Below, one piece after another: positions 9,394-60,834 of a stretch of DNA of 62,592 bases. A program made the position numbers and the translations under genes. The notes under the pieces are model-generated. The model was not told the DNA's origin. It made no database searches and saw nothing but the letters and a program-made list of their open reading frames with translations. Where the stretch lies: NCBI GenBank assembly GCA_945897825.1, contig CAMDGX010000014.1, positions 1-62,592 of the forward strand. The letters are read 5' to 3'. Positions within the stretch are counted from its first letter, which is position 1. The number at the start of each line of letters is the position of its first letter. Source of the stretch: Asaia bogorensis (GTDB taxonomy: Bacteria; Pseudomonadota; Alphaproteobacteria; Acetobacterales; Acetobacteraceae).

Positions 9394-9514
9394 TTCTTCT
9401 TTTTCTGAAGAAAAAGAAGCAAAAAGACTTTTTTCCATTTGCACCGCGTTCACCTTATTGAAGAGATGTGCAAATGGATGAAAAGTTTTTTGGTTCTTTT
9501 TTTCAAAAAAGAAC
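9394..9514. repeat. Intergenic repeat family A, copy 2
   Basis: Both T/A hairpins are intact; the central arms CCATTTGCAC and GTGCAAATGG pair. Lies inside the carotenoid gene run, and the stop codon of the second desaturase (9503-9505) is located within its right hairpin. Confidence 0.92.
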
Positions 9515-15998: not shown

Positions 15999-17396
15999 TC
16001 AAGCGCGGCGGGCGTCGGCGGTCAACCGAGGCCGTGCCGCGCGCAGGTCGATGGCGGCGATCGCCAGGGCGATGGCGAGCAGCGGGATCATGCGGTTCTG
16101 GTAGCGGGATTCGCCGGCCGACAGGGCGCCGCCGAGGAAGGCGTTGGCGGCCAGGGCCAGGAACACGGTGGCCAGCACGATCCCGGCCGTGGTGCGGCGC
16201 CAAAGAACCGCGAGGACGAGCGCCGCCACCGAGGCCGCCAGCAGGAGGAAGCCCATCGGAACGTGCACCAGGTTCAGCGTGTCGAAGTGCAGCGCGTCCG
16301 TCTGCTGGCGGGATGCCATGAACCGGGCGGCTTCGTGCGCGAAATGGCGGTTGATCGTGATGACCACCGACCTTTCCTCCCCAAAGGGGTGCAGCCCCCA
16401 GCCGGTGGCGAAGTGGAAGAACTGCGCCACGGTCAGCTGGATCGCCATACCGAGGTGGCGCCAGGGGGAATCGGCGATGATGTCGCGCACCAGCTTCCCC
16501 GCCTCCGCGTTGAAGGCCAGCGGGCCGCCCAGGGCTGCGATGGTGCCGTTGAAGTCGAAGAAGAAGGCGTTGAGCTCGTTGGGCAGCTCGGCGCGATAGG
16601 CGCACAGGCCGTAGCTTGCGGTCTCGCAGGCGGTGGCGAGGAATTGCTGCGCGGTTCCCGACTGGACCAGGCGGCCGAGCAGGAGAACGGAGCTGACCGG
16701 CGAGAAGGTGAGGGTGCCGAGGGCGGCGTAGTTCACCGCGACGACCGCGGCGATGGCGGCGAGGCTGGTGGCGGCGACCAGCAGGATGGCGCGGCGCGGC
16801 ACGCGGGCGCCCATCAGGGCGGCGAGCACCAGGATGGCGATGCAGACGCCGATGGCCAGGGGAATATGGCCGAAATGGGCTGCCTGCGCGGCGAGGAGCA
16901 CCAGGGCGCAGGCCAGGCGCGCGACAGTGCCGAGCACCTGGTCGCGCAGCAGCAACAGCAGCAGGCACAGCACGAGGAGCGGGGCGAGGAAGTCGGGCGA
17001 GACCTGGCCGGTGCTCCAGGGCAGGCCGGTGGCGAACGCCAGCACGGCCAGCATCGCGATGCGGATCCCGCCGCGCCCCGCGAGGGTGTCGTCGGGCAGC
17101 AAGGCGGTGGCGCGTTCGATCACCCAGGCCGCGACGATGCATTGCGCGGCGACGATCGGCCAGAGCGTGAGGCCGAGATGGAAGGGCAGGATGAACAGCG
17201 AATAGAAGATCGGCCGGTCGGGGTAGTAGCGCTGTTCCAGCGCGGCGCGGATATAGGTGCCGCTGTCGGAGAACAGGATCGGGTAGCCGTTCCACAGCGC
17301 GGCCCAGGCAAGCACCAGGGCGGCCAGCGCGATGAAGCCCCAGGCATGGCGCTCGCCGGGACGGCGCAGGGTGTCGGCGCTGACGGAAGCCGGCAT
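15999..17396 (-). CDS. Polytopic membrane protein of unknown function
   Basis: 465 residues with roughly ten to twelve hydrophobic segments. A periplasmic-type loop near the N-terminus carries YPILFSDSGTYI, and an acidic residue after the first helix is reminiscent of GT-C lipid-linked glycosyltransferases, but I cannot assign a family with confidence. A loop around FHFATGWGLHPFGEERS precedes the last helices. It sits 32 bp upstream of the aminotransferase and 198 bp downstream of the GMC operon on the same strand. Confidence 0.75.
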   Translation of the reverse strand: MPASVSADTLRRPGERHAWGFIALAALVLAWAALWNGYPILFSDSGTYIRAALEQRYYPDRPIFYSLFILPFHLGLTLWPIVAAQCIVAAWVIERATALLPDDTLAGRGGIRIAMLAVLAFATGLPWSTGQVSPDFLAPLLVLCLLLLLLRDQVLGTVARLACALVLLAAQAAHFGHIPLAIGVCIAILVLAALMGARVPRRAILLVAATSLAAIAAVVAVNYAALGTLTFSPVSSVLLLGRLVQSGTAQQFLATACETASYGLCAYRAELPNELNAFFFDFNGTIAALGGPLAFNAEAGKLVRDIIADSPWRHLGMAIQLTVAQFFHFATGWGLHPFGEERSVVITINRHFAHEAARFMASRQQTDALHFDTLNLVHVPMGFLLLAASVAALVLAVLWRRTTAGIVLATVFLALAANAFLGGALSAGESRYQNRMIPLLAIALAIAAIDLRAARPRLTADARRA

Positions 17397-17594: not shown

Positions 17595-18074
17595 CTACGG
17601 GGCGTCGCGCCAGATCTTGCCCCGCTTGCGCACCGGGTCGAGCAGCGACCAGTCGCCCTGCGGCAGTTCGTGGCCCTTCGGGAAGGGCGGGCGCGGCTCC
17701 ATGCCCAAGGAGATCATCACGCGATCGTCGCGGTAATAGCACTGCAGGACGATGCGCGTGGTGAGCGTCAGGTTCATGCCGCCCTCGGCGCGCAGCGTGG
17801 CGCAGGCCTCGTCCTGCTTGGCGACCGGCAGGGCCGCGAAGTCGCCGCCGGCGATGCGGTCCAGCAGGGCGAGGGTGTCGTGCACGGCGGTGGCGTCGCG
17901 GCCGATGCTCTTGGCGATGTCGGCCTGGATCAGCGGGTCGTCGGCGCCGGGGACCTTGTACTCGTCGCTGGCGGGGATCATGCGGGCGCACATGGCGGCC
18001 AGGGTGCGCTTCTCCTGGTCGGAGAGGGTGGGGTCGCCCCAGGCGGGCGGGGGGTTGGCGAGGGTGTTGGACAT
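17595..18074 (-). CDS. Gluconate 2-dehydrogenase gamma-like small subunit, no Tat signal
   Basis: 159 residues. The segment TLSDQEKRTLAAMCARMIPA followed by GADDPLIQADI and a helical region ending TRIVLQCYYRD resembles the gluconate 2-dehydrogenase subunit 3 family, the partner of GMC-type FAD dehydrogenases. In characterised complexes this subunit carries a twin-arginine signal and takes the catalytic subunit across the membrane; here the N-terminus (MSNTLANPPPAWG) has none, so the complex is probably cytoplasmic. It is the last gene of the operon, 11 bp after the sixth dehydrogenase gene in transcription order, and is the only such subunit for six catalytic paralogs. Confidence 0.75.
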   Translation of the reverse strand: MSNTLANPPPAWGDPTLSDQEKRTLAAMCARMIPASDEYKVPGADDPLIQADIAKSIGRDATAVHDTLALLDRIAGGDFAALPVAKQDEACATLRAEGGMNLTLTTRIVLQCYYRDDRVMISLGMEPRPPFPKGHELPQGDWSLLDPVRKRGKIWRDAP

Positions 18075-18085
18075 GGGGGTGTTCC

Positions 18086-19696
18086 TCAGTCGAAGAGGGT
18101 GGCCAAACGCTGCTTCATCTGGTCGGCGATGTAGAGCGCGAGGGCCTGGATGGTGGAGGTGGGGTTGACGCCGCCGGAGGTGGTGAAGATGGAGCCGTCG
18201 ACGATGAACAGGTTGCGCACGTCGTGGGTGCGGCCCCAGCCGTTCACGACGGAGCGGGTGGGGTCGTCGCCCATGCGGGCGGTGCCGAGCAGGTGCCAGC
18301 CGCCGTTGAGGATCGGCCGCTCGACGCCGATGTCCCAGGCGCCGGCCTCGCGCAGCGCCTCGGTGGCGCGCGCGATGGCGTGGTCGAGCATGCGGTTCGA
18401 ATTCTCGCTGAGCGTGTAGTCGATCTTCGGCGCCGGGATGCCGTGGGCGTCCTTGAGGACAGGGTCGAGCGTGACGCGGTTGTGCGCTTCGGGCAGGTCC
18501 TCGCAGATGGCGGCGATGTTCATGCGGTGGTTGTGGAGCTTGCGGTAAACCGCATGGTGCTCCGCCCCCCAGGGCAGGCGGCCGAGGGCCATCGACTGCT
18601 GCGCTTCGAGAATGGCGCCGACGCCGCGGCCGAACTGCCAGGAATAGCCGCGCACGAAGCCGCGGGACTTGTCGGTTTCGTAGAACTCGTGGCTCCACAG
18701 CGACAGCGGCGGCCCGCGATTGCCGTCGGTCTCCTGGTCGAAGTAGCCCCAGATGCTGGCATAGGGGTGGAACATCAGGTTGCGGCCGACCTGGTCCGAT
18801 GAATTGGCCAGGCCGGTGGGGAAGCGCTCGGACTTGGAGTTCAGCAGGAGGCGGGCGGTGCCGATGCCGTTGGCGGCCAGGACGACGACATGGGCGGGCT
18901 GGAACTGCTCGATGCCGTCCTTGTCGTAGTAGATGACGCCGTTGGCCATGCCGGTTGCGGGATCGACGGTGATCTCGCGGACGCGCGAGCGGGTGCGCAG
19001 CTCGACGCCGGCGCGGATGGCCGCGGGCCAGTAGGTGATGTCGGTGCTGGCCTTGGCCCCCTGGGCGCAGCCGGCGATGCAGTGGCCGAGGTTGATGCAG
19101 GGGGCGCGGCCCTCGTATTCGCGCGTCGTCACCGCGCAGTCGCTCGGCCACCAGTGCCAGCCGAGGCGGTTCATCGCCTCGCCGAGCATGCGCCCGGAGC
19201 GGCCCATGGGGATGGGGTCCATCGGCGGGGTTTTCTGCGGCGGGTAGGCAGGGTCGCCGGCCATGCCCGAAACGCCGGTCATGCGGTCGTTCTCGGCGAA
19301 GAAGGGCTCGAGCTGGTGGTAGTCGACCGGCCAGTCATCGGCCACGCCATCGAGCGACTTCACCTTGAAGTCGGAGGGGTGCAGGCGCGGGTAGTGCGCG
19401 GCATACAGGATGGTGCTGCCGCCGACCGCATTGAAGTTCAGCACCTTGATCGGCGAGTTGTCGTCGTTGACCGGGTAGTCCGACCAGAGCTGCCGCCGGT
19501 TCGGCGAGGTGGCCATGTCGGCGAACTGCCGCGCCTCCCAGTCCCGCCCGGTGGAGGGGTAGTTGGCCGGGTTCTGCCAGTCGCCCTGCTCCAGGCAGAC
19601 GATGCGCATCTTGGTGTCGGCGAGCGACCAGGCCACGGCGGCACCGGAGGCTCCGGAGCCGATGATCAGGACGTCGACGGGGTCTTGGTGGGGCAT
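18086..19696 (-). CDS. GMC-family FAD dehydrogenase, paralog 1 (6th in transcription order)
   Basis: 536 residues. Rossmann FAD motif IIGSGASGAAVAWSLAD at the N-terminus, NAVGGST, a CINLGHCIAGC motif (Cys200, 206, 210: CX5CX3C) and the catalytic GGWHLLGTARMG followed by GVNPTSTIQALALYIAD, where the His and Asn form the GMC active-site pair. The Cys spacing equals that of the 3Fe-4S ligands in FAD-glucose dehydrogenase (Cys212/218/222 as I recall), so electrons probably leave through a cluster rather than to oxygen. No signal peptide. Directly followed by the gamma-like subunit, which suggests this member is its native partner. Substrate unknown. Confidence 0.9.
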   Translation of the reverse strand: MPHQDPVDVLIIGSGASGAAVAWSLADTKMRIVCLEQGDWQNPANYPSTGRDWEARQFADMATSPNRRQLWSDYPVNDDNSPIKVLNFNAVGGSTILYAAHYPRLHPSDFKVKSLDGVADDWPVDYHQLEPFFAENDRMTGVSGMAGDPAYPPQKTPPMDPIPMGRSGRMLGEAMNRLGWHWWPSDCAVTTREYEGRAPCINLGHCIAGCAQGAKASTDITYWPAAIRAGVELRTRSRVREITVDPATGMANGVIYYDKDGIEQFQPAHVVVLAANGIGTARLLLNSKSERFPTGLANSSDQVGRNLMFHPYASIWGYFDQETDGNRGPPLSLWSHEFYETDKSRGFVRGYSWQFGRGVGAILEAQQSMALGRLPWGAEHHAVYRKLHNHRMNIAAICEDLPEAHNRVTLDPVLKDAHGIPAPKIDYTLSENSNRMLDHAIARATEALREAGAWDIGVERPILNGGWHLLGTARMGDDPTRSVVNGWGRTHDVRNLFIVDGSIFTTSGGVNPTSTIQALALYIADQMKQRLATLFD

Positions 19697-19705
19697 CTTG
19701 TTTCC

Positions 19706-21304
19706 TCAGTCGAACAGCGTGTCGAGCCGCCGCTTCATCTGGTCGGCAATGTAGAGCGCGATGGCCTGTATGGTCGAGGTGGGGTTCACGCCGCCGCCGG
19801 TGACGAACACGGAGCCGTCGATGACGAACAGGTTCCTCACGTCGTGGCTGCGGCCCCATTCATTGACCACGCTGCGTTCCGGGTCGGTCCCCATGCGCGC
19901 AGTGCCGAGCAGGTGGCCGGGATAGTTCAGCACCTCGCGCGAGCAGGTGATGGTGTGCGCGCCGGCTTCGCGCATGATCTCGGTGGCGCGCGCGATGCCG
20001 TGCTCCATCATGCGCGCGGTGTTCGCACCCACGGTGTAGTCGATGCGCGGGGCGGGGATGCCGTGGCTGTCGGTGAGCGACGGGTCGAGGGTGATGCGGT
20101 TGTGCTCCTCGGGCAGGTCGTCGCAGGCGACGCCGACATGGAAGCGGCGCATGGCATAGCGGCGCATGGCGCCGTGGTGCGCCTCGCCCCAGGGGATGCG
20201 GCCGGACTCGACGCCGGCCATCGCCTCGCCCACCGGGCCGGGGCCGCGGCCGAACTGCAGCATGTAGCCGCGGACGAAATCGCGGCCGGGGTCGGTTTCG
20301 TAGAACTGCTTGGACCACAGCGAGACGATCGGCCCGCGCTGGCCGTCCATCTCGTCGTCGAACCAGCCCTGCACGACCGGCCAGGGATGCAGCATCAGGT
20401 TCCGCCCCACCAGGCCGGAGGAGTTGGCCAGGCCGTTGGGGAACCGGCCCGAGACGGAGTTGAGCAGCAGGCGGGGCGTACCGATGCCGTTGGCGGCCAT
20501 GACGACGACATGCGCGGGCTGGAACACCTCGCGCCCGTCGCGGTCGTAGTAGATCGCGCCCGAGGCCATGCCGTCCGCCCCGAGCGTGATCTCGCGCACC
20601 CGGCAATGGGTGCGCAGCTCGACGCCGGCGCGGATCGCCTGCGGCCAGTAGGTGATGTCGGTGCTGCCCTTCGCCCCCTGCGCGCAGCCGGGCAGGCAGT
20701 GGCCGAGATTGATACAGGGCGCGCGCCCTTCGTGTTCGACCGTGGCGATCGCCGCATCCGACGGCCACCAGTGCCAGCCCAGCCGGTTCATCGTCTCCGC
20801 CGCGCGCGTGCCGGAGCGGCCGAGCGGGATCGGCGGCAGCGGCGGGGCGTGGTTGGGGAAGGCGGGGTCACCGGCCAGGCCGGCCACGCCCATCACCTGA
20901 TCGTTCTGCGCGTAGAAAGGTTCCAGCATGCGGTAGTCGATCGGCCAGTCGGTCGCCACGCCGTCGAGCGATCGCACGCGGAAGTCGCTGGGGTGCAGGC
21001 GCGGGAAATGCGCGGCGTAGTGGACGGTGCCGCCGCCCACCGCATTGTAGGTGGCGATCTTGACGATCGAGGCGCGGTCGTTGACCGGGTAGTCGGCGGG
21101 AAGCTGGCGGCGGTTGGCCATGATGTCGGAATCGGCATAGCGCCGGGCTTCCCAGTCGCGGCCATTGGCGGGGTAGTCGGTCGGCTTCACCCAGTCGCCC
21201 TGCTCCAGGCAGACGATGCGCATCTTCGTCTCGGCCATCGACCAGGCGAACGCCGCCCCCGAGGCGCCCGAGCCGATGATGAGGATGTCGACGGGGTCGT
21301 TCAT
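19706..21304 (-). CDS. GMC-family FAD dehydrogenase, paralog 2
   Basis: 532 residues with the same architecture: FAD motif IIGSGASGAAFAWSM, CINLGHCLPGC cysteine triad, and the active site NYPGHLLGTARMG plus GVNPTSTIQAIALY. It is the most divergent around the active site: where four siblings have Trp before the catalytic His and one has Val, it has Gly. The early segment also differs (RYADSDIMANRRQL), and AYNAVGGGT-type residues replace FNGVGGGT. These changes suggest a different substrate. Spacing is 9 bp to paralog 1 and 5 bp from paralog 3. Confidence 0.9.
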   Translation of the reverse strand: MNDPVDILIIGSGASGAAFAWSMAETKMRIVCLEQGDWVKPTDYPANGRDWEARRYADSDIMANRRQLPADYPVNDRASIVKIATYNAVGGGTVHYAAHFPRLHPSDFRVRSLDGVATDWPIDYRMLEPFYAQNDQVMGVAGLAGDPAFPNHAPPLPPIPLGRSGTRAAETMNRLGWHWWPSDAAIATVEHEGRAPCINLGHCLPGCAQGAKGSTDITYWPQAIRAGVELRTHCRVREITLGADGMASGAIYYDRDGREVFQPAHVVVMAANGIGTPRLLLNSVSGRFPNGLANSSGLVGRNLMLHPWPVVQGWFDDEMDGQRGPIVSLWSKQFYETDPGRDFVRGYMLQFGRGPGPVGEAMAGVESGRIPWGEAHHGAMRRYAMRRFHVGVACDDLPEEHNRITLDPSLTDSHGIPAPRIDYTVGANTARMMEHGIARATEIMREAGAHTITCSREVLNYPGHLLGTARMGTDPERSVVNEWGRSHDVRNLFVIDGSVFVTGGGVNPTSTIQAIALYIADQMKRRLDTLFD

Positions 21305-21309
21305 GGGGC

Positions 21310-22914
21310 TCAATCGAACAAGTTGGCCAGGCGCTGCTTCATCGCGTCGGCGATGTAGAGCGCGAGGGCCTGGATGGTGCTGGTGGGGTTCACGCCGCCG
21401 GCCGAGGCGAACAGGCTGCCGTCGCAGATGAAGAGGTTGCGCACATCGTGCGTGCGGCCCCACTCGTTGACGACGGAGGTTCGCGGGTCGGCCCCCATGC
21501 GCGCCGTGCCGAGATTGTGCCAGCCGGAAAGCGGGATCGGGTTGACGGTCGAGATGTCGCGCGCGCCGGCGGTTTCCAGCAGCGTCGTGGCCTGCGCGAT
21601 GCCGTGGGCGATCATGCGCTGCGTGTTCTCGCCGATGGTGTAGTCGACCTTCGGGGCCGGGATGCCGTGGCTGTCCTTCAGCACGGGGTCGAGGGTCACG
21701 CGGTTGTGCGCCTCGGGCAGGTCGTCGGTGACGAGGGAGAGCGCGAGGCGGCGATGGTGTAGCTGGCGCATCACCGCGTGGTGGTTCGCACCCCAGGGCA
21801 GGCGGCCGTGGTCGAAGCTGGTGGTCGCCTCCACGACCGCGCCGACGCCGCGGCTGATCTGGAAGATGTAGCCGCGCTTGAAGTCGTTCGCGGGATCGGT
21901 CTCGTAGAACTGGTGGCTCCACAGCGACAGCGGCGGGCCGCGGTTGCCGTCGATCTCGTGATCGACATAGCCGTAGACCGAGACATAGGGGTGCAGCATC
22001 AGGTTGCGCCCGACCTGGTCGGACGAATTGGCCAGGCCGTTGGGGTGCTGTTCGCTGGCGGAATTCAGCAGCATCCGCGGCGTGCCGATGCCGTTGCACG
22101 CGACGATGACGACGTGGGCGGCCTGGAAGCACAGCTTGCCGGCTTCGTCGTAGTACTCGGCGCCGGTGGCCATGCCGTCAGGCCCGGTGGTGATGCGCTT
22201 CACGCGGCAATGGGTGCGCAGCTCCACGCCGGCGCGCAGCGCGAGCGGCCAGTAGGTGATGTCGGTGCTGGCCTTGGCACCCTGCGCGCAGCCGGGCGTG
22301 CAGTGCGCGAGGTTGATGCATTTCGCGCGGCCTTCGTAGTCCTCGGTGGCGATCGAGATGTCGGACGGCCACCAGTGCCAGCCGAGCTTGTTCAGCGCGG
22401 TGCCCCACGCGAGGCCGGAGCGGCCGAGATGGGGCGGGCGCATGATCGGCTTCTTGCCGGGCGGGTAGGCGGGATCGCCCTCCAGGCCCGAGACACCCAT
22501 CATGCGGTCGTTCTGTGCGTAGAACGGCGCCAGGGTGTCGTAGCTGACCGGCCAGTCCGCGCCGACGCCGTCGAGCGATTGCGTGCGGAAGTCGCTGGGG
22601 TGCAGGCGGGGGAAGTGGGCGGTGAACATGATGGTGCCGCCGCCGACGCCGTTGAAGTTCATGATCTTGATCGGCGAGGCGTCGTCGTTGATCGGGTAGT
22701 CCTCGGGGCGACCGCGGCGGTTCGGATTCGGCGAGAAGTCGGTGGTGACGCGCGCTTCCCAGTCGCGCCCGTTCGTGGGGTAGTCGGTGGGCTTCACCCA
22801 GCCGCCCTGTTCCAGGCAGACGATGCGCATCTTCGTCTCGGCGAGCGACCACGCCATGGCGGCCCCCGAGGCGCCGGCGCCGATGATCAGGATATCCGCG
22901 ATGTCGTCGGCCAC
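21310..22914 (-). CDS. GMC-family FAD dehydrogenase, paralog 3
   Basis: 534 residues; FAD motif IIGAGASGAAMAWSLAE, FNGVGGGT, CINLAHCTPGC triad and SGWHNLGTARMG with GGVNPTSTIQ. Translation most likely starts at GTG (22914), since no ATG lies in frame nearby and the alignment with siblings begins here. By eye it is closest to paralog 4: both share the DFSP.PNRR..PEDYPINDDASPIK and SYDxLxPxY blocks and GADPRTSVVNEWGRTH, pointing to a recent duplication. The gap to paralog 2 is 5 bp. Confidence 0.9.
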   Translation of the reverse strand: MADDIADILIIGAGASGAAMAWSLAETKMRIVCLEQGGWVKPTDYPTNGRDWEARVTTDFSPNPNRRGRPEDYPINDDASPIKIMNFNGVGGGTIMFTAHFPRLHPSDFRTQSLDGVGADWPVSYDTLAPFYAQNDRMMGVSGLEGDPAYPPGKKPIMRPPHLGRSGLAWGTALNKLGWHWWPSDISIATEDYEGRAKCINLAHCTPGCAQGAKASTDITYWPLALRAGVELRTHCRVKRITTGPDGMATGAEYYDEAGKLCFQAAHVVIVACNGIGTPRMLLNSASEQHPNGLANSSDQVGRNLMLHPYVSVYGYVDHEIDGNRGPPLSLWSHQFYETDPANDFKRGYIFQISRGVGAVVEATTSFDHGRLPWGANHHAVMRQLHHRRLALSLVTDDLPEAHNRVTLDPVLKDSHGIPAPKVDYTIGENTQRMIAHGIAQATTLLETAGARDISTVNPIPLSGWHNLGTARMGADPRTSVVNEWGRTHDVRNLFICDGSLFASAGGVNPTSTIQALALYIADAMKQRLANLFD

Positions 22915-22923
22915 GAGTGTTTC

Positions 22924-24528
22924 CTAGTCGAAAAGGGTGGCCAGGCGCTGCTTCATCTGCTCGGCGATGTAGAGTGCCAGGGCCTGGATGGTGGAGGTCG
23001 GGTTCACGGCCCCCGCGGAGGCGAACAGCGAGCCGTCGACGATGAACAGGTTGCGCACGTCGTGGGTGCGGCCCCATTCGTTCACCACCGAGGTGCGCGG
23101 ATCGGCGCCCATGCGCGCGGTGCCCAGGTTGTGCCAGCCGCCATACAGGATCGGGTTCTGCACGTTGATGTCGCGCGCGCCGATCGTCTCCAGCACGCGG
23201 CGCGCGTTGACGACGCCGTGGTCGATCATGCGCAGGCTGTTTTCGCCCATGCGGTATTCCACCTTCGGCGCAGGAATGCCGTGGCTGTCCGCCAGCCGGG
23301 GATCGAGGGTGACGCGGTTGTGCGCCTCCGGCAGGTCGTCGACCACGACGGAAAGGTTCAGGCGCCGATAGACCAGCTTGCGGTAGGTGTCATGGTGCGC
23401 CGCCCCCCAGGGCAGCCGCCCGGTCTCGTGGCTGGCGATCGCCTCGGCGACGGCGCCGATGCCGCGGCTGACCTGGAACATGTAGCCGCGCTTGAAATCC
23501 CGCGCCGGATCGGTCTCGTAGAACTCGTGGCTCCACAGGTTGAGCGGCGGGCCGCGGTTGCCGTCCACTTCCTGGTCCACGTAGCCGTAGATCTGGATAT
23601 ACGGATGGAACATCAGGTTGCGGCCAACCTGGTCCGACGAGTTGGCCAACCCGTTCGGGTGGCGCTCGCTGGCGGAGTTCAGCAGCAGGCGCGGCGTGCC
23701 GATGCCGTTGGCGGCCAGCACCACGACATGGGCGGCCTGGAAGCGCAGCTTATTTTCGGCATCGAAATACTCGACGCCGGTTGCCATGCCGTCCTCGCCG
23801 GTGACGATGCGTTTCACGCGGCAATGGGTGCGCAGCTCCACCCCGGCGCGCAGCGCGAGCGGCCAGTAGGTGATGTCGGTGCTGGCCTTCGCGCCCAGCG
23901 CGCAGCCCGGCGTGCAGTGGCCGAGATTGGCGCAGGCCGCGCGGCCTTCGTATTCCTCGGTGGCGATGGTGGCGTCGCTGGGCCACCAGTGCCAGCCGAG
24001 CTGGTTGAAGGCGCTCGCCCACAGCGCGCCGGAACGCCCAAGCGGCAGCGGCCTCATCGGCGGCTTCTTGTTCGGCGGATAGGCCGGGTCGCCGGCGAGG
24101 CCGGAGACGCCCATCATGCGGTCGTTGAGGTCGTAGTATGGCTCAAGCTGGTCGTAGCTCACCGGCCAGTCCTCGCCGACGCCGTCGAGCGATTGCGTGC
24201 GGAAGTCCGACGGATGCAGGCGCGGCCAATGCGCCGTGTACATCACCGTGCCGCCGCCGACGCCGTTGAAGTTCACCACCTTGATCGGCGAGGCATCGTC
24301 GTTGATCGGGTAGTCCTCGGGGCGCTGGCGCCGGTTGGGGCTGGGGGAGAAGTCGCCCATCGCGCGCGCTTCCCAGTCCCGCCCGGTGGACGGATACTCG
24401 GCCGGGTTCATCCAGCCGCCCTGCTCCAGGCAGACGATGCGCATCTTGGTGTCGGCCAGCGACCAAGCCATGGCGGCCCCGGAGGCCCCCGCGCCGATGA
24501 TGAGGACGTCGACGGTGTCGTCGGTCAC
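22924..24528 (-). CDS. GMC-family FAD dehydrogenase, paralog 4
   Basis: 534 residues; FAD motif IIGAGASGAAMAWSLAD, FNGVGGGT, the cysteine triad as CANLGHCTPGC (an Ala replaces Ile and CALGAK replaces CAQGAK) and GGWHNLGTARMG with GAVNPTSTIQ. GTG start at 24528; the stop is TAG, whereas paralogs 1, 2, 5 and 6 end in TGA. It pairs with paralog 3 in shared sequence blocks. Gaps of 9 and 10 bp to its neighbours place it inside one polycistronic message. Confidence 0.9.
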   Translation of the reverse strand: MTDDTVDVLIIGAGASGAAMAWSLADTKMRIVCLEQGGWMNPAEYPSTGRDWEARAMGDFSPSPNRRQRPEDYPINDDASPIKVVNFNGVGGGTVMYTAHWPRLHPSDFRTQSLDGVGEDWPVSYDQLEPYYDLNDRMMGVSGLAGDPAYPPNKKPPMRPLPLGRSGALWASAFNQLGWHWWPSDATIATEEYEGRAACANLGHCTPGCALGAKASTDITYWPLALRAGVELRTHCRVKRIVTGEDGMATGVEYFDAENKLRFQAAHVVVLAANGIGTPRLLLNSASERHPNGLANSSDQVGRNLMFHPYIQIYGYVDQEVDGNRGPPLNLWSHEFYETDPARDFKRGYMFQVSRGIGAVAEAIASHETGRLPWGAAHHDTYRKLVYRRLNLSVVVDDLPEAHNRVTLDPRLADSHGIPAPKVEYRMGENSLRMIDHGVVNARRVLETIGARDINVQNPILYGGWHNLGTARMGADPRTSVVNEWGRTHDVRNLFIVDGSLFASAGAVNPTSTIQALALYIAEQMKQRLATLFD

Positions 24529-24538
24529 GTTGCGTGTC

Positions 24539-26137
24539 CTAGTCGAAAAGGTTGCCGATGCGCTGCTTCATCTGATCGGCGATGTAGAGCGCGAGGGCCT
24601 GGATGGTGGGGGTCGGGTTGACGCCGGCGGAGGTGACGAACAACGAGCCGTCGATGACGAACAGGTTCCGAACGTCGTGCGCGCGGCCCCATTCGTTGAC
24701 GACGGAATGGCGCGGATCGGTGCCCATCCGGGCGGTGCCCATGAGGTGCCAGCCGCCATAGGGCAGCGGCCCTTCGCTCTCGACCTCGTAGGCGCCGGCG
24801 GCCTCCAGCACCTCGGTGCCGCGCGCGATGGCGAAGTCCATCATGCGGCGGCTGTTCTCGTTCAGCGCGTAGGCGATGCGCGGGGCCGGAATACCGTTGC
24901 TGTCGCGCAACACCGGATCGAGGGTGACGCGATTGTCTGGGTCGGGTAGGTCTTCCAGGATGGCGCCCAGGCCGGTGCCGCGGCGGTGGCGCTTCCGGTA
25001 GGCGGCGTGGTGGCCGGGGCCCCAGGGGATGGCGCCGGATTCGATGCCGTCCAGCGCCGTGGCGGCCGTGCCGCTGCCTCGGTTGAACTCCCAGATGAAG
25101 CCGCGCACGAAACCTCTCGTCGTGTCGGTTTCGTAGAATTCGTGGCTCCACATCGCGTTGTCGGGGCCGCGCTCGCCGTCGAGCTCCTCGTTGAACCAGC
25201 CCCAGATGCTGACATAGGGGTGGAACATCAGGTTGCGGCCGACCTGGTCTGACGAGTTGGCCAGGCCATTCGGAAAGCGCTCGGATGTGGAGTTGAGCAG
25301 CAGGCGCGGCGTGCCGATGCCGTTGCTGGCGAGCACGACGATGTGGGCGGGCTGGAAATGCTCCCGGCCCTCGGCGTCGTAGTAGATCGCGCCGTTGGCC
25401 ATGCCCTCCGGCCCGAGCGTGATCTCGCGCACGCGGCAGCGCGTGCGCAGTTCCACGCCGGCGCGGATGGCGGCGGGCCAGTAGGTGATGTCGGTGCTGC
25501 CCTTCGCCCCCTGCGCACAGCCGGCGGTGCACAGGCCGAGATTGATGCAGGGCGGGCGGCCTTCGTACGCCACCGAGGCGATGGTGCTGTCGCTCGGCCA
25601 CCAGTGCCAGCCCAGCTTGTTGAAGCCCCGGCCTAGAGTTTCGGACGCGCGGCCCATCGGCAGCGGCGGCATCGGCACCGTCTTGGGCGGATAGGCCGGG
25701 TCGCCGGCCAGGCCCGAGATGCCCATCATGCGGTCGTTGATGTCGTAGAACGGGGCCAGGGTGGCGTAGTCGATCGGCCAGTCGTCGGCCACGCCGTCGA
25801 GCGATTTCACCCGAAAGTCGCTGGGGTGGAAGCGCGGCGTGTGCGCGCCATACAGCACGGTGCCGCCGCCGACGCCGTTGAAGTTGGCGACCTTGATGCA
25901 GGAATCTTCCTCGTGGATCGGGTAGTCGGTGTCGCGCCGGCGGCGGTTCGGGCTGATTGCCCAGTCGCCGCCGTTGCGCGCCTCGGCGTCCCGCCGCGTG
26001 GCGGGGTAGGTGGCGGGGTTGTTCCAGTCGCCCTGTTCCAGGCAGACGATGCGCATCCGCGTCTCGGCCATCGACCAGGCGAAGGCGGCCCCGGAGGCGC
26101 CGGCGCCGATGATGAGGATGTCGACGGGGTCTGTCAT
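24539..26137 (-). CDS. GMC-family FAD dehydrogenase, paralog 5
   Basis: 532 residues; FAD motif IIGAGASGAAFAWSMAE, FNGVGGGT, CINLGLCTAGC triad and GGWHLMGTARMG with GVNPTPTIQALALY. The N-terminal quarter differs from the siblings (NNPATYPATRRDAEARNGGD; HEEDSCIKV with an extra Cys). The start is ATG at 26137, only 1 bp from the stop of paralog 6, so translation of the two is probably coupled. Confidence 0.9.
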   Translation of the reverse strand: MTDPVDILIIGAGASGAAFAWSMAETRMRIVCLEQGDWNNPATYPATRRDAEARNGGDWAISPNRRRRDTDYPIHEEDSCIKVANFNGVGGGTVLYGAHTPRFHPSDFRVKSLDGVADDWPIDYATLAPFYDINDRMMGISGLAGDPAYPPKTVPMPPLPMGRASETLGRGFNKLGWHWWPSDSTIASVAYEGRPPCINLGLCTAGCAQGAKGSTDITYWPAAIRAGVELRTRCRVREITLGPEGMANGAIYYDAEGREHFQPAHIVVLASNGIGTPRLLLNSTSERFPNGLANSSDQVGRNLMFHPYVSIWGWFNEELDGERGPDNAMWSHEFYETDTTRGFVRGFIWEFNRGSGTAATALDGIESGAIPWGPGHHAAYRKRHRRGTGLGAILEDLPDPDNRVTLDPVLRDSNGIPAPRIAYALNENSRRMMDFAIARGTEVLEAAGAYEVESEGPLPYGGWHLMGTARMGTDPRHSVVNEWGRAHDVRNLFVIDGSLFVTSAGVNPTPTIQALALYIADQMKQRIGNLFD

Positions 26138-26138
26138 G

Positions 26139-27737
26139 TCAGTCGAACAGGTTTGCCAGGCGCTGCTTGATCTGGTCGCACACGTAGAGCGACAGCGCCT
26201 GGATGGTGCGGGTGGGGTTGAGGCCGGCGGAGGTGACGAAGATGGAGCCGTCCACCACGAAGAGGTTCTTCACGTCGTGCGCGCGGCCCCATTCGTTCAC
26301 CACGCTGCGGGTGGGGTCGGTGCCCATGCGGGCGGTGCCCATCATGTGGACGCCGTTGGTGCGGATGGGCGCTTCGCTGACGATGGTGTGGGCGCCGGCG
26401 GCGTTCAGGATGTCGGTGCCGCGGGCCACCGCATGGTCGAGCATGCGTCGCGAGTTCTCGCTCAGTGTGTAGTCGATCCTCGGCGCCGGGATGCCGTGGC
26501 CGTCCTTCAGCACCGGATCGAGCGTGACGCGGTTGTGCAACTCGGGCAGGTCCTCGCAGATCGCGACCATGCCGGTGCGCCTTCCCGCGAACTTGCGCAT
26601 GGCGGTATGATGGCCCTCGCCCCAGGGCACCAGTCCGCCGGCCATGCCGAGCGAGGCGGTCATCACCGGGTTCTGGCCGCGCACCATCTCGAACGTGTAG
26701 CCGCGCAGGAAGCCTCGCGTCGCTTCGGTTTCGTAGAATTCCTGGCTCCACATCGTATTGCCGGGGCCGCGCCATCCGTCGGTGGGTTGGTCGAAGTAGC
26801 CGAAGATGGCGGCGTAGGGGTGGAACATCAGGTTGCGGCCGACGAGGCCGGAGGAGTTGGCGAGGCCGTTCGGGAAGCGCTCGGATTTCGAGTTCAGCAG
26901 GATGCGCGACGTGCCGATGGCGTTGCAGGCCATGATGACGATATGCGCGCCGATGAAGCACTCCTTCCCGTCGCGGTCGTAGTAGATGACGCCGTTCGCC
27001 ATGCCGTCTTCGCCGACCGTCACTTCGCGCACGCGAGCCCTTGTGCGCAGTTCGACGCCGGCGCGGATGGCGTGCGGCCAGTATGTGATGTCGGTGCTTG
27101 CCTTGGCCCCCTGCGCGCAGCCGGAGGTGCAGTGGGCGAGGTTGATGCAGCGGGCGCGGCCTTCGTAGTCCTCCGACGCGATGGCACTGTCACTGGGCCA
27201 CCAGTGCCAGCCGAGCTTGTTGATGGCACCCGCCAGGATCTCGCCGGAGCGGCCCAGCGGCAGGGGCGGCATCTGCGCTTCGTGCGGCGGGTAGGCGGGG
27301 TCGCCGGCCAGGCCCGACACGCCAGTGATGCGGTCGTTCTCGTCGTAGTAGGGGGCGAGGGTTTCGTAGTTGATCGGCCAGTCGTCGGCGATGCCGTCGA
27401 GCGATTTCACGCGGAAGTCGCTGGGATGGAAGCGCGGGAAATGGCCGGCATAAAGCACCGTGCCGCCGCCGACGCCGTTGAAGTTGCCGACCAGGATGGG
27501 GGAGTTGTCCTCGTTGATCGGGTAGTCGGTGTCTCTCGCGCGCCGATTGGGAGAGATGGCGAAGTCGCCCATCTGGCGCGCTTCCCAGTCGCGGCCGGAG
27601 GTGGGGTAGTCGGACGGGTTCATCCAGTCGCCCTGCTCGAGGCAGACGATGCGCATCTTCGTGTCGGCGAGGCTGTAGGCCGCCGCCCCGCCCGAGGCGC
27701 CGGCGCCGATGATCACCACGTCTGCGATGTCGGCCAT
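26139..27737 (-). CDS. GMC-family FAD dehydrogenase, paralog 6 (first gene of the operon)
   Basis: 532 residues; FAD motif IIGAGASGGAAAYSLAD, FNGVGGGT, CINLAHCTSGC triad and TNGVHMMGTARMG with GLNPTRTIQALSLYVCD, where the Trp before the catalytic His is Val. It is the promoter-proximal member; the promoter must lie in the 116 bp shared with the divergent aldo/keto reductase. A GGGAGC ribosome binding site precedes ATG 27737. Confidence 0.9.
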   Translation of the reverse strand: MADIADVVIIGAGASGGAAAYSLADTKMRIVCLEQGDWMNPSDYPTSGRDWEARQMGDFAISPNRRARDTDYPINEDNSPILVGNFNGVGGGTVLYAGHFPRFHPSDFRVKSLDGIADDWPINYETLAPYYDENDRITGVSGLAGDPAYPPHEAQMPPLPLGRSGEILAGAINKLGWHWWPSDSAIASEDYEGRARCINLAHCTSGCAQGAKASTDITYWPHAIRAGVELRTRARVREVTVGEDGMANGVIYYDRDGKECFIGAHIVIMACNAIGTSRILLNSKSERFPNGLANSSGLVGRNLMFHPYAAIFGYFDQPTDGWRGPGNTMWSQEFYETEATRGFLRGYTFEMVRGQNPVMTASLGMAGGLVPWGEGHHTAMRKFAGRRTGMVAICEDLPELHNRVTLDPVLKDGHGIPAPRIDYTLSENSRRMLDHAVARGTDILNAAGAHTIVSEAPIRTNGVHMMGTARMGTDPTRSVVNEWGRAHDVKNLFVVDGSIFVTSAGLNPTRTIQALSLYVCDQIKQRLANLFD

Positions 27738-27853
27738 GTCGGGCTCCCGGACTCTCCTGGCGCAGTCGATGCCGGGGCGGGGCGGATGTCAACGGTTGGC
27801 GCGGGGTGGGGCGGGGGATAGTCTGGTGACGGATCGCATCGAGGAGCCGAGGC

Positions 27854-28855
27854 ATGGAATACCGCCGGATGGGGCGCAGCGGGCTGAAGGTCTCGGAGAT
27901 CTGCCTGGGCACCATGACCTTCGGCCATGGGGCGGACGAGGGGGAGGCGGGGCGGATCCTGGATGCGTGCCTTGAGGCAGGGGTGAACTTTCTCGATACC
28001 GCCAATTCCTACAATGGCGGCGAGAGCGAGAGCATCCTGGGCGGGTTGCTGAAGGGGCGGCGGCGGCGCGTGGTGCTGGCGAGCAAGGTGTTCAACCCGA
28101 TGGGCACCGGGCCGAACGATTCCGGGGGCTCCCGGGCGCATATCATGACGGCCGTCGAGGACAGCCTGCGGCGGCTGTCGACCGACTATCTCGATCTCTA
28201 CTACCTGCACCATGTCGACCACGAGACGCCGATCGAGGAATCGGTGCGGGCGCTGGATGACCTCGTGCGGCAGGGGAAGATCCGCTACGCGGCGGTTTCT
28301 AACTACGAGGCGTGGCGGTTGATGGAATCGCTGTGGATCGCGGACAGCAAGGGGCTTTCGCGGTTCGAGTGCTACCAGCCGCAGTATTCGCTGGTGGTGC
28401 GGGATATCGAGCAGGAGATCGTGCCGGTCTGCGAGGCGAAGGGACTTGGCGTGGTGGTGTGGTCGCCGCTGGCGGGCGGGTATCTGACGGGCAAGTACCA
28501 GCCGGGCGAGGCGCGGGCGAGTGGTTCGCGCAGCGAGGAGGGCTGGGCGTTTCCGATGCGCTTCTTCCATCCGGACCATGCCAACGTGCTGGCGACCCTG
28601 CTGGAGGTGTCGGCGGAACTGGGCCGGGCGCCGGCGCAGGTGGCGCTGCGCTGGGTGCTGGACCAGGGGTTCGTGACGTCGGCGATCGTGGGGGCGCGGA
28701 CGCAGGCGCAGATCGAGGAGACGTTGCAGGCGGTGGGCTGGCGGTTGCCTGACGCGGCGCGGGCGCGGCTGGATGCGGTGTCGGCGCTGCCGCTGCGGTA
28801 TCCGCGGACGATGGAGGACGGGATGCGGGAGCGGCGGGCTTCGGCGGTAAGGTAG
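27854..28855 (+). CDS. Aldo/keto reductase
   Basis: 333 residues; an NADP(H)-dependent TIM-barrel oxidoreductase. The tetrad is visible: Asp and Tyr in FLDTANSY, Lys in LASKVF and His in YLHHVDH. The C-terminal cofactor segment SAIVGARTQAQIEE is typical of the YhdN/potassium-channel-beta-like AKR branch. Good ribosome binding site (GAGGAG then GAGG) before ATG. Divergent from the GMC operon across 116 bp, which suggests but does not prove shared regulation. Repeat family A copy 3 begins 5 bp after its stop. Confidence 0.9.
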   Translation: MEYRRMGRSGLKVSEICLGTMTFGHGADEGEAGRILDACLEAGVNFLDTANSYNGGESESILGGLLKGRRRRVVLASKVFNPMGTGPNDSGGSRAHIMTAVEDSLRRLSTDYLDLYYLHHVDHETPIEESVRALDDLVRQGKIRYAAVSNYEAWRLMESLWIADSKGLSRFECYQPQYSLVVRDIEQEIVPVCEAKGLGVVVWSPLAGGYLTGKYQPGEARASGSRSEEGWAFPMRFFHPDHANVLATLLEVSAELGRAPAQVALRWVLDQGFVTSAIVGARTQAQIEETLQAVGWRLPDAARARLDAVSALPLRYPRTMEDGMRERRASAVR

Positions 28856-31842: not shown

Positions 31843-31957
31843 TTCTTCTTTTTGTGAACAATAAGAAGCAAAAAAACTTTGTCCATGGCGCCGGGAGGTG
31901 GGGTCGGGACCCAAGAAAAGGATAAAAGTTTTTTGGTTCTTTTTTTCAAAAAAGAAC
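31843..31957. repeat. Intergenic repeat family A, copy 4
   Basis: Variant left hairpin (CTTCTTTTTGTGAAC...AATAAGAAG) with a mismatch; right hairpin intact; central region lacks the CCATTTGC arms. Sits between two convergent genes, 9 and 10 bp from their stop codons. Confidence 0.88.
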
Positions 31958-35666: not shown

Positions 35667-35785
35667 TTCTTCTTTTTGTGAACAAAAAGAAGCAAAAAAA
35701 CTTTATCCGTTTATGCCGTGTGTGGGGGTTCGGGGACGGTGCAAATGGATGAAAGTTTTTTGGTTCTTTTTTTCAAAAAAAGAAC
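35667..35785. repeat. Intergenic repeat family A, copy 6
   Basis: Left hairpin variant with GTGAAC loop; right hairpin has one extra A. Between two convergent genes, 6 and 7 bp from their stop codons. Confidence 0.9.
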
Positions 35786-51795: not shown

Positions 51796-51916
51796 TTCTT
51801 CTTTTTCTGAAGAAAAAGAAGCAAAAAGACTTTTCATCCATTTGCACCGCGCCTGGCGTGTAGGGCGCGGTGCAAATGGACAGAAAGTTTTTTGGTTCTT
51901 TTTTTCAAAAAAGAAC
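51796..51916. repeat. Intergenic repeat family A, copy 8 (best-preserved)
   Basis: The most regular copy: arms CCATTTGCACCGCG and CGCGGTGCAAATGG form a perfect 14-bp central stem between the two T/A hairpins. Between two co-directional minus-strand genes; 4 bp from the FadB stop and 25 bp upstream of the CoA-transferase start. Confidence 0.93.
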
Positions 51917-60713: not shown

Positions 60714-60834
60714 TTCTTCTTTTTCTGAAGAAAAAGAAGCAAAAAGACTTTTTATCCATTTGCGCCGGGGATGGGGGTTCGGGCGGGGTGCAAATGGACA
60801 GAAAGTTTTTTGGTTCTTTTTTTCAAAAAAGAAC
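60714..60834. repeat. Intergenic repeat family A, copy 9
   Basis: Both T/A hairpins intact; CCATTTGCGCC...GGTGCAAATGG central stem with one mismatch. Between two co-directional minus-strand genes, 8 bp from the LDH2 stop. Confidence 0.92.

Follow-up and report, generated by a model that had tools for sequence, protein, structure and literature searches.

Six GMC dehydrogenase genes of differing ancestry precede one small-subunit gene in an array conserved across a genus of Acetobacteraceae

We analysed a window of 62,592 nucleotides from Asaia bogorensis (contig CAMDGX010000014.1 of assembly GCA_945897825.1, here contig C14 of a 4.93 Mb genome in 208 contigs). It carries an array of six GMC-family dehydrogenase genes, G1 to G6, followed by a single small-subunit gene, S. 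Reading of the open reading frames (ORFs) places all seven genes on the minus strand, from 27737 down to 17595 (Table 1), with gaps from G1 to S, in transcription order, of 1, 10, 9, 5, 9 and 11 bp; the G5 frame is also listed inside a longer ORF, 22132-19706. The domains GMC_oxred_N and GMC_oxred_C both score above their Pfam cut-offs in all six chains. Pairwise protein identity among the six is 63-79%, with G3 and G4 sharing 79% and all other pairs 63-71%. A preliminary description, made from the sequence of the window, had recorded six full-length, collinear GMC genes of 532-536 residues separated by 1-11 bp, and the ORFs, the Pfam matches and nine assemblies agree with it.

Table 1. Features of the array, its surroundings and related loci (window coordinates unless a locus is named).
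Feature	Position	Strand	Remarks
G1, GMC dehydrogenase catalytic chain	27737-26139	minus	532 residues; Val before catalytic His
G2, GMC dehydrogenase catalytic chain	26137-24539	minus	532 residues; Trp before catalytic His
G3, GMC dehydrogenase catalytic chain	24528-22924	minus	534 residues, GTG start; one clade with G4
G4, GMC dehydrogenase catalytic chain	22914-21310	minus	534 residues, GTG start; counterpart in g89 three-gene array
G5, GMC dehydrogenase catalytic chain	21304-19706	minus	532 residues; Gly before catalytic His, His97
G6, GMC dehydrogenase catalytic chain	19696-18086	minus	536 residues; lowest dN/dS among the six
S, gamma-like small subunit gene	18074-17595	minus	159 residues
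Promoter-like site TTGACA-N17-TCGACT upstream of G1	27764-27792	minus	conserved alignment block
Divergent aldo/keto reductase gene beside G1	27854-28855	plus	possible functional partner
G7 and its own small subunit gene	L054 8777-10829
Hairpin junctions	L055 7608-7851, 11066-11185, 12791-12923		also L160, L162, L163, L164, L165, L166, L167, L168, L169

The array is conserved across the genus, a point that the preliminary description had marked for checking. Its genes are present, in compatible order, in all nine genus genomes sampled, counting the window genome (genomes carry three-digit handles, the window genome being G000). G1-G6 lie on one contig in identical order in G000, G003, G005 and G006. 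In G001, G004, G007 and G008, all six genes are present but divided between two contigs, in runs of compatible order, some of which are cut off at a contig end. G002 has five genes, of which the first (L161 8926-10524) is a G1/G2 chimera, G1-like over about its first 90 bases and G2-like over the rest; it lies directly behind the promoter-like site, with a TauE-like gene next. This chimera may be a product of recombination or of assembly collapse, the G002 assembly being 68% complete. S stands directly behind G6 in eight of the nine genomes; in G001, where the contig ends within G6, a genome search found no S-like gene. Because the same array recurs in nine separate assemblies, chance or misassembly is very unlikely. 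In a related genus, g89, a shorter G4-G5-G6-S array is present in two of the four genomes sampled (G096 and G198).

The six genes do not form a single lineage. In a tree of 55 rows, groups G1, G2, G4, G5 and G6 are fully or near-fully supported, and the G3 rows fall in one clade with G4 (100/100); G3 rows were assigned by best match and position, since they do not make a separate clade. G1 groups with L065 of another genus (98/97), G2 with L072 (95/83) and L175 (100/100), and G5 with five non-array rows (100/100), and G6 lies within a 17-row clade that includes non-array rows (99/96). Holding the 20 array rows together as one clade costs 247 log-likelihood units and is rejected by the approximately unbiased (AU) test (p-AU 9.4e-6), which rules out simple tandem expansion as the origin of the array. 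A tree of the six with homologs had been suggested in the preliminary description. Given the tree placements and the rejected monophyly, the array combines about five GMC lineages with one G3/G4 duplication. The three-gene array of g89 suggests that G4-G5-G6-S is the older core and that growth took place at the 5' end, although loss in g89 would yield the same picture. In a tree of S proteins the array S forms its own clade (92/90) with no clear nearest partner lineage.

All six catalytic chains are under purifying selection. We compared 60 full-length genus rows (G1 8, G2 9, G3 7, G4 10, G5 11, G6 10, G7 5), leaving out fragments of fewer than 500 aligned residues and using G6 numbering. Median ratios of nonsynonymous to synonymous substitution (dN/dS) per group are 0.09-0.18, the lowest of G1-G6 being that of G6 (0.094), calculated from pairs with dS < 1.5 only; single pairs reach 0.415. 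Gly13, Cys200, Cys206, Cys210, His468 and Asn511 are invariant in all 60 rows, and the GxGxxG motif is seen in each of the six array chains; 180 of 182 full-length rows have it close to the N-terminus in the form G[AS]G.[SA]G. The preliminary description was thus right to call the flavin adenine dinucleotide (FAD), cysteine-triad and His/Asn motifs intact. It had also pointed to differences beside the catalytic His and near the N-terminus, and both are found: the preceding residue is Val in G1, Trp in G2, G3, G4 and G6, and Gly in G5 (G4 orthologs have Phe or Trp), and residues ~50-80 are more variable among the six.

The chains also differ at positions that each group keeps constant. Thirteen positions are fixed within each of G1-G6 with at least three states between groups (72, 82, 97, 99, 207, 208, 326, 331, 395, 397, 469, 507 and 514). 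Seven of these 13 fall in four cofactor or catalytic motif windows, as against 28 of 209 other within-group-fixed positions (Fisher p 0.001, with the windows picked after the positions were seen). One of them, position 97, is His in all 11 G5 rows and Leu or Met in the other groups. As His97 aligns with the reported FAD-linking His105 of Burkholderia cepacia glucose dehydrogenase, G5 may bind FAD covalently and the other chains not.

The fructose dehydrogenase of Gluconobacter japonicus is a heterotrimer. It is also the best structural match (PDB 7w2j, 8xcm and 9jqa; E 9e-52, template modelling (TM) score 0.88, 27% identity) of the AlphaFold model of G6, which represents the six chains here (predicted local distance difference test (pLDDT) score 87, from 67 aligned relatives). 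The top nine Foldseek matches of this model in the PDB are all large subunits of fructose or glucose dehydrogenases (FDH/GDH), with TM scores of 0.85-0.88. By its PDB entry titles the Gluconobacter enzyme is membrane-bound and contains heme c, unlike the enzymes that we propose for the array; and, unlike FDH/GDH-type complexes, the array has no multiheme cytochrome gene beside it, the rest of the genome not having been searched for one.

The B. cepacia glucose dehydrogenase gamma-alpha complex (PDB 6a2u) provides a close parallel to the gene set. An FAD glucose dehydrogenase with a gamma partner has been studied for glucose sensors, according to one report (PMC9727119). A second report (PMC6719666) describes the B. 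cepacia enzyme: FAD is probably bound covalently at His105, Cys212, Cys218 and Cys222 hold a [3Fe-4S] cluster, a Cys213-Cys152 disulfide links the chain to gamma, and gamma carries a twin-arginine signal. G6 has the fold of the alpha chain (Foldseek E 3e-47, TM 0.85), the three cluster cysteines and the catalytic His and Asn are in register, with the cysteines the same in all 60 genus rows, and a gamma-like partner gene adjoins the catalytic genes. Several features set the array apart: six catalytic genes precede one small-subunit gene, the disulfide position Cys213 is Ile, Ala or Met in the 60 rows, His105 is matched in G5 only, and no twin-arginine translocation (Tat) signal is seen on S.

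The preliminary description ended the array in one small-subunit gene, and this assignment stands, though S itself scores below the cut-off of the relevant family (PF13618, Gluconate_2-dh3; 21.2 bits against 23.4). Only 9 of 40 S-family members match PF13618 at E <= 0.01, and the search found the array S and missed a second S-like gene of the same genome, making it a blunt tool for this family. An hhalign comparison of the S alignment (42 rows) with 11 gamma-family proteins gave a probability of 96 (E 4.4e-9), and from this profile-profile comparison S appears to be gamma-like. Neither a signal peptide nor a Tat signal was seen in S. Among 109 S homologs, some from duplicate contigs and all with automatically assigned start codons, RRx[FLIVM] occurs in the first 40 residues of 11 and a hydrophobic stretch in three; we do not read these as signal peptides.

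Outside the genus, most loci have one catalytic gene. A close G6 relative (E <= 1e-180) is present in 33 of 249 family genomes and 15 of 102 genera, and one at E <= 1e-150 in 25 of 385 genomes of a class-level survey, where no neighbouring GMC pair outside the array genus appears among the matches listed. The family survey scored five candidates per genome and the class survey three, so copy numbers are lower bounds. A locus survey covered the best 80 of 570 relatives in a collection with one genome per species. Three of these loci are array contigs of this genus (L080-L082), all metagenome assemblies; the other 77 comprise 63 GMC-S, three S-GMC, three GMC-GMC-S, two GMC-S-GMC and six GMC without detected S. 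In the pairs of Bradyrhizobium, Reyranella, rhizobia and other Acetobacteraceae, the catalytic chain is mostly 65-79% identical to G6, and 71 of the 77 loci resemble the array in holding an S-like gene. Across the 80 best loci and 27 fully scored family genomes, the longest GMC run outside the genus is three, in g89.

One GMC to one S is a rule by locus, not by genome. With all candidates scored, GMC matches outnumber S matches in 14 of the 27 family genomes outside the genus and equal them in 13, in counts that include contig-end fragments of GMC genes. The ratio reaches five to one, in G213 and G171, and is three to one in G028 and G245. An excess of GMC over S-like genes was also observed in G012 and G135. 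With such an excess in 14 of 27 genomes, the array is not alone in having one S for several catalytic chains; the wider family shows this trait, and the six genes of the array are its extreme case. The excess means either that S is shared in trans or that some chains need no S.

The window genome holds a seventh GMC gene, G7, on contig C6, which is 70% identical to G6 and has a second S-like gene, sharing 47% identity with S, behind it. This gene and the array S are the only S-like genes in the genome at E <= 0.001. G7 is present in six of the nine genus genomes and was not found in three, and G005 (97% complete) has the six-gene array and a single S-like gene genome-wide. More distant GMC relatives, outside the array subfamily, lie at G005:C87:6974-8548 (45% identical to G6) and G002:C296:3014-4597 (43%).

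A promoter-like site upstream of G1 is conserved with the array. TTGACA-N17-TCGACT is kept in an eight-genome alignment of the genus in which much of the surroundings varies, and it lies upstream of the first array gene in all nine genomes, always with a 17-nt spacer. The pattern TTGACAN{15,19}YCGACT, derived from the array itself, has a single match in the 4.93 Mb window genome, at 27792-27764. Genus-wide it has 19 matches, 10 of them elsewhere than the array; a reversed-pattern control gave 13, which places the outside matches at chance level. With gaps of only 1-11 bp, the array is probably transcribed as one unit in this species.

In sister species the junctions look different. Upstream of G5, 18 junction spacers of 106-244 bp in G001, G003, G004, G006, G007 and G008 fold into long hairpins with minimum free energies of -56 to -128 kcal/mol, in which short units are repeated; the units belong to four or more sequence types (CGCCAAG, ACAGAGG, AGAGGCGGAG and GGAGACGGCG among them), and the same junction holds different types in different species. 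No junction hairpins were found in the window, G002 or G005, and there is none at G5-G6 in any genus genome or at G6-S in the eight where that junction is visible; one hairpin lies behind S in G004. The exact CGCCAAG-type 19-mer has 16 sites in the nine genomes, six of them in array junctions. The G003 array has two CGCCAAG clusters and one CAGAGG cluster, and G003 contigs C52 and C59 (288 kb, chosen regardless of the repeat) have no CGCCAAG cluster and a single CAGAGG cluster, the array's own junction. The array junctions look like preferred sites for palindromic repeats. Three of the repeat strings were searched for in the open-access literature, with no occurrence found. In one of five loci compared with Rfam, L163, there were sub-threshold matches to a microRNA family (best 38 bits, where the gathering score is 87), which we regard as a palindrome artefact.

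Genes that surround the closest relatives offer clues to substrates. Of the four closest plasmid relatives, two (68 and 66% identical) have a mandelate-racemase-type gene on one side and sugar ABC transporter genes on the other, with an aldehyde dehydrogenase and a GntR regulator nearby; the third is without annotation, and the fourth has a mandelate-racemase-type gene among transposases. A Sulfitobacter relative (54%) is accompanied by genes annotated as aldehyde dehydrogenase, sugar-acid dehydratase-like protein, 2-dehydro-3-deoxygalactonokinase and 2-dehydro-3-deoxy-6-phosphogalactonate aldolase. The aldolase scores above its NCBIfam cut-off; the kinase has no family match at E <= 1e-20. 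The dehydratase-like neighbours resemble galactonate or arabinonate dehydratases, below cut-off. The g89 array lies near genes for a class-V aminotransferase, a TauD-type dioxygenase and a solute-binding protein. As a first guess, the substrates of the array would be sugars, polyols or similar alcohols.

We propose that the array encodes cytoplasmic FAD/[3Fe-4S] GMC dehydrogenases in which six catalytic chains, made from one transcript, share one gamma-like chain; we think this reading has about the same chance of being right as of being wrong. The chains would be non-redundant and differ in the substrates that they prefer; each would carry a [3Fe-4S] cluster on the conserved C-x5-C-x3-C loop and would pair with S. 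With its conserved C-terminal tail, S would cover the cluster in the manner of gamma in B. cepacia glucose dehydrogenase. Electrons would pass from FAD to the cluster and on to an acceptor; no cytochrome gene lies beside the array. A cytoplasmic two-chain enzyme is what the lack of both a signal peptide in S and an adjoining cytochrome gene leads us to infer. The promoter upstream of G1 would drive co-production of the six chains, which would draw on a common pool of S. The array would have been assembled from GMC genes of different lineages and the G3/G4 duplication, probably around the older G4-G5-G6-S. The sharing of S, which the preliminary description had also supposed and with which the gene counts are compatible, we consider an even bet.

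A fuller version of this proposal, which we hold only tentatively and think may well be wrong, envisages a modular system. Six chains of differing ancestry would compete for scarce S; total capacity would depend on S, and the substrate profile on the relative amounts of the chains. The hairpins of sister species would tune these levels gene by gene, genes would be recruited at the 5' end and lost by recombination between neighbours, and the wider family would share S in trans.

Several observations weigh against the proposal that six co-transcribed chains share S and act on sugars. The S model (pLDDT 83, from 42 relatives) matched no PDB chain at E <= 0.001 in Foldseek, the gamma chain of B. 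cepacia glucose dehydrogenase included, and the S profile found no relative among PDB sequences (best E 0.024); its main matches there, LEDGF/PSIP1, were taken as chance. Inferred interface positions are identical in all six chains at 5 of 11 sites, compared with 240 of 536 overall, a background level that by itself speaks neither for nor against sharing. Six of the 77 non-genus loci have a GMC gene and no S nearby, and no S was detected in L072 and L175, nearest G2, or in L073; the G2-related lineage may do without S or use S made elsewhere. The genome-wide excess of GMC over S may likewise mean that some chains need no S. At the promoter-like site, the -10 hexamer TCGACT is poor and far from consensus, for which reason a general consensus scan omits the site, and the junction hairpins of other species could break up the transcript there. 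Finally, the Bradyrhizobium relatives lie near genes for a trypsin-like serine protease and FMO-like, P450 and alpha/beta hydrolase proteins, not near sugar genes (one representative annotated per neighbour family).

Some of these points fit a narrower role for S as the dedicated partner of G6, with the other five chains working without a small subunit or using the one beside G7. G6 adjoins S and has the lowest median dN/dS, the gaps around it (8-9 bp to G5 and 11-13 bp to S) are free of hairpins in every genome where they are visible, the window genome has another S-like gene, the G2-like loci L072 and L175 lack S, and the separate clade of the array S gives no indication of its GMC lineage of origin. 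However, the three-Cys loop is kept in all six chains, and S does adjoin the GMC gene in L065, nearest G1, and in L062, L063, L067, L085 and L087, near G5. Nor is a second small subunit available everywhere, because no G7 was found in three of the nine genus genomes and G005 has a single S-like gene. We consider a G6-only role for S rather unlikely. Simple gene dosage or redundancy, in which the genes are recent tandem copies of one enzyme, is far less credible: collinearity, similar length and the G3/G4 pair, 79% identical and in one clade, speak for it, but array monophyly is rejected, every other pair is only 63-71% identical, and the positions fixed within groups and differing between them contradict it for all but G3/G4.

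Alternatively, the genes could form separate or segmentally regulated units, with the junction hairpins acting as terminators, attenuators or mRNA stabilisers. The 18 hairpin-forming spacers in six sister species accord with this idea, but only 1-10 bp separate the GMC genes in the window species and two others, and the promoter-like and terminator-like matches from a general scan of the window array, one of each, do not exceed those in shuffled sequence; we regard segmental regulation as improbable. A further alternative keeps the architecture of six chains and one S and replaces sugars with hydrophobic cyclic or terpenoid alcohols, as the FMO-like, P450 and alpha/beta hydrolase genes near the Bradyrhizobium pairs would suggest. 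This is possible but doubtful: the sugar ABC transporter, sugar-acid dehydratase-like and aldehyde dehydrogenase neighbours of two plasmid relatives, and the aldolase gene adjoining the 54% relative, point to sugars, and the closest solved enzymes oxidise sugars. The preliminary description had supposed that the chains act on one family of related compounds. This may or may not be so: His at the position that links FAD in the solved enzyme is seen only in G5, and relatives lie among sugar-acid genes in some cases and among monooxygenase genes in others.

Enzymes of this type are known; what is unusual is that genes of separate lineages stand together in front of a single partner gene. We found no such bacterial array in the open-access literature, most subscription journals lying outside that search. 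The array is a clear case of assembly from separate lineages, not of simple duplication. A set of six chains with one partner gene would show a complex diversifying by the addition of catalytic subunits. It would also supply a collection of variants that have no cytochrome partner, and partner promiscuity could be tested on them directly.

The array is flanked by genes of other families. A homolog of the aldo/keto reductase adjoins G1 in eight of the nine genus genomes, the window included, and none lies on the G002 contig. Downstream of S are genes for a 465-residue protein, an aminotransferase and an MFS transporter. The 465-residue protein (15999-17396, 3' of S) has no Pfam or NCBIfam match, and homologs only about 41% identical lie near the array in three genus contigs. 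An AT-rich inverted repeat (AAAAAGAAGCAAAAAGACTTT... / ...AAAGTTTTTTGGTTCTTTTTT) is dispersed through the window, at 9402-9510, 31860-31945, 35684-35772, 51813-51904 and 60731-60822, and occurs on contig C6 of the same genome too.

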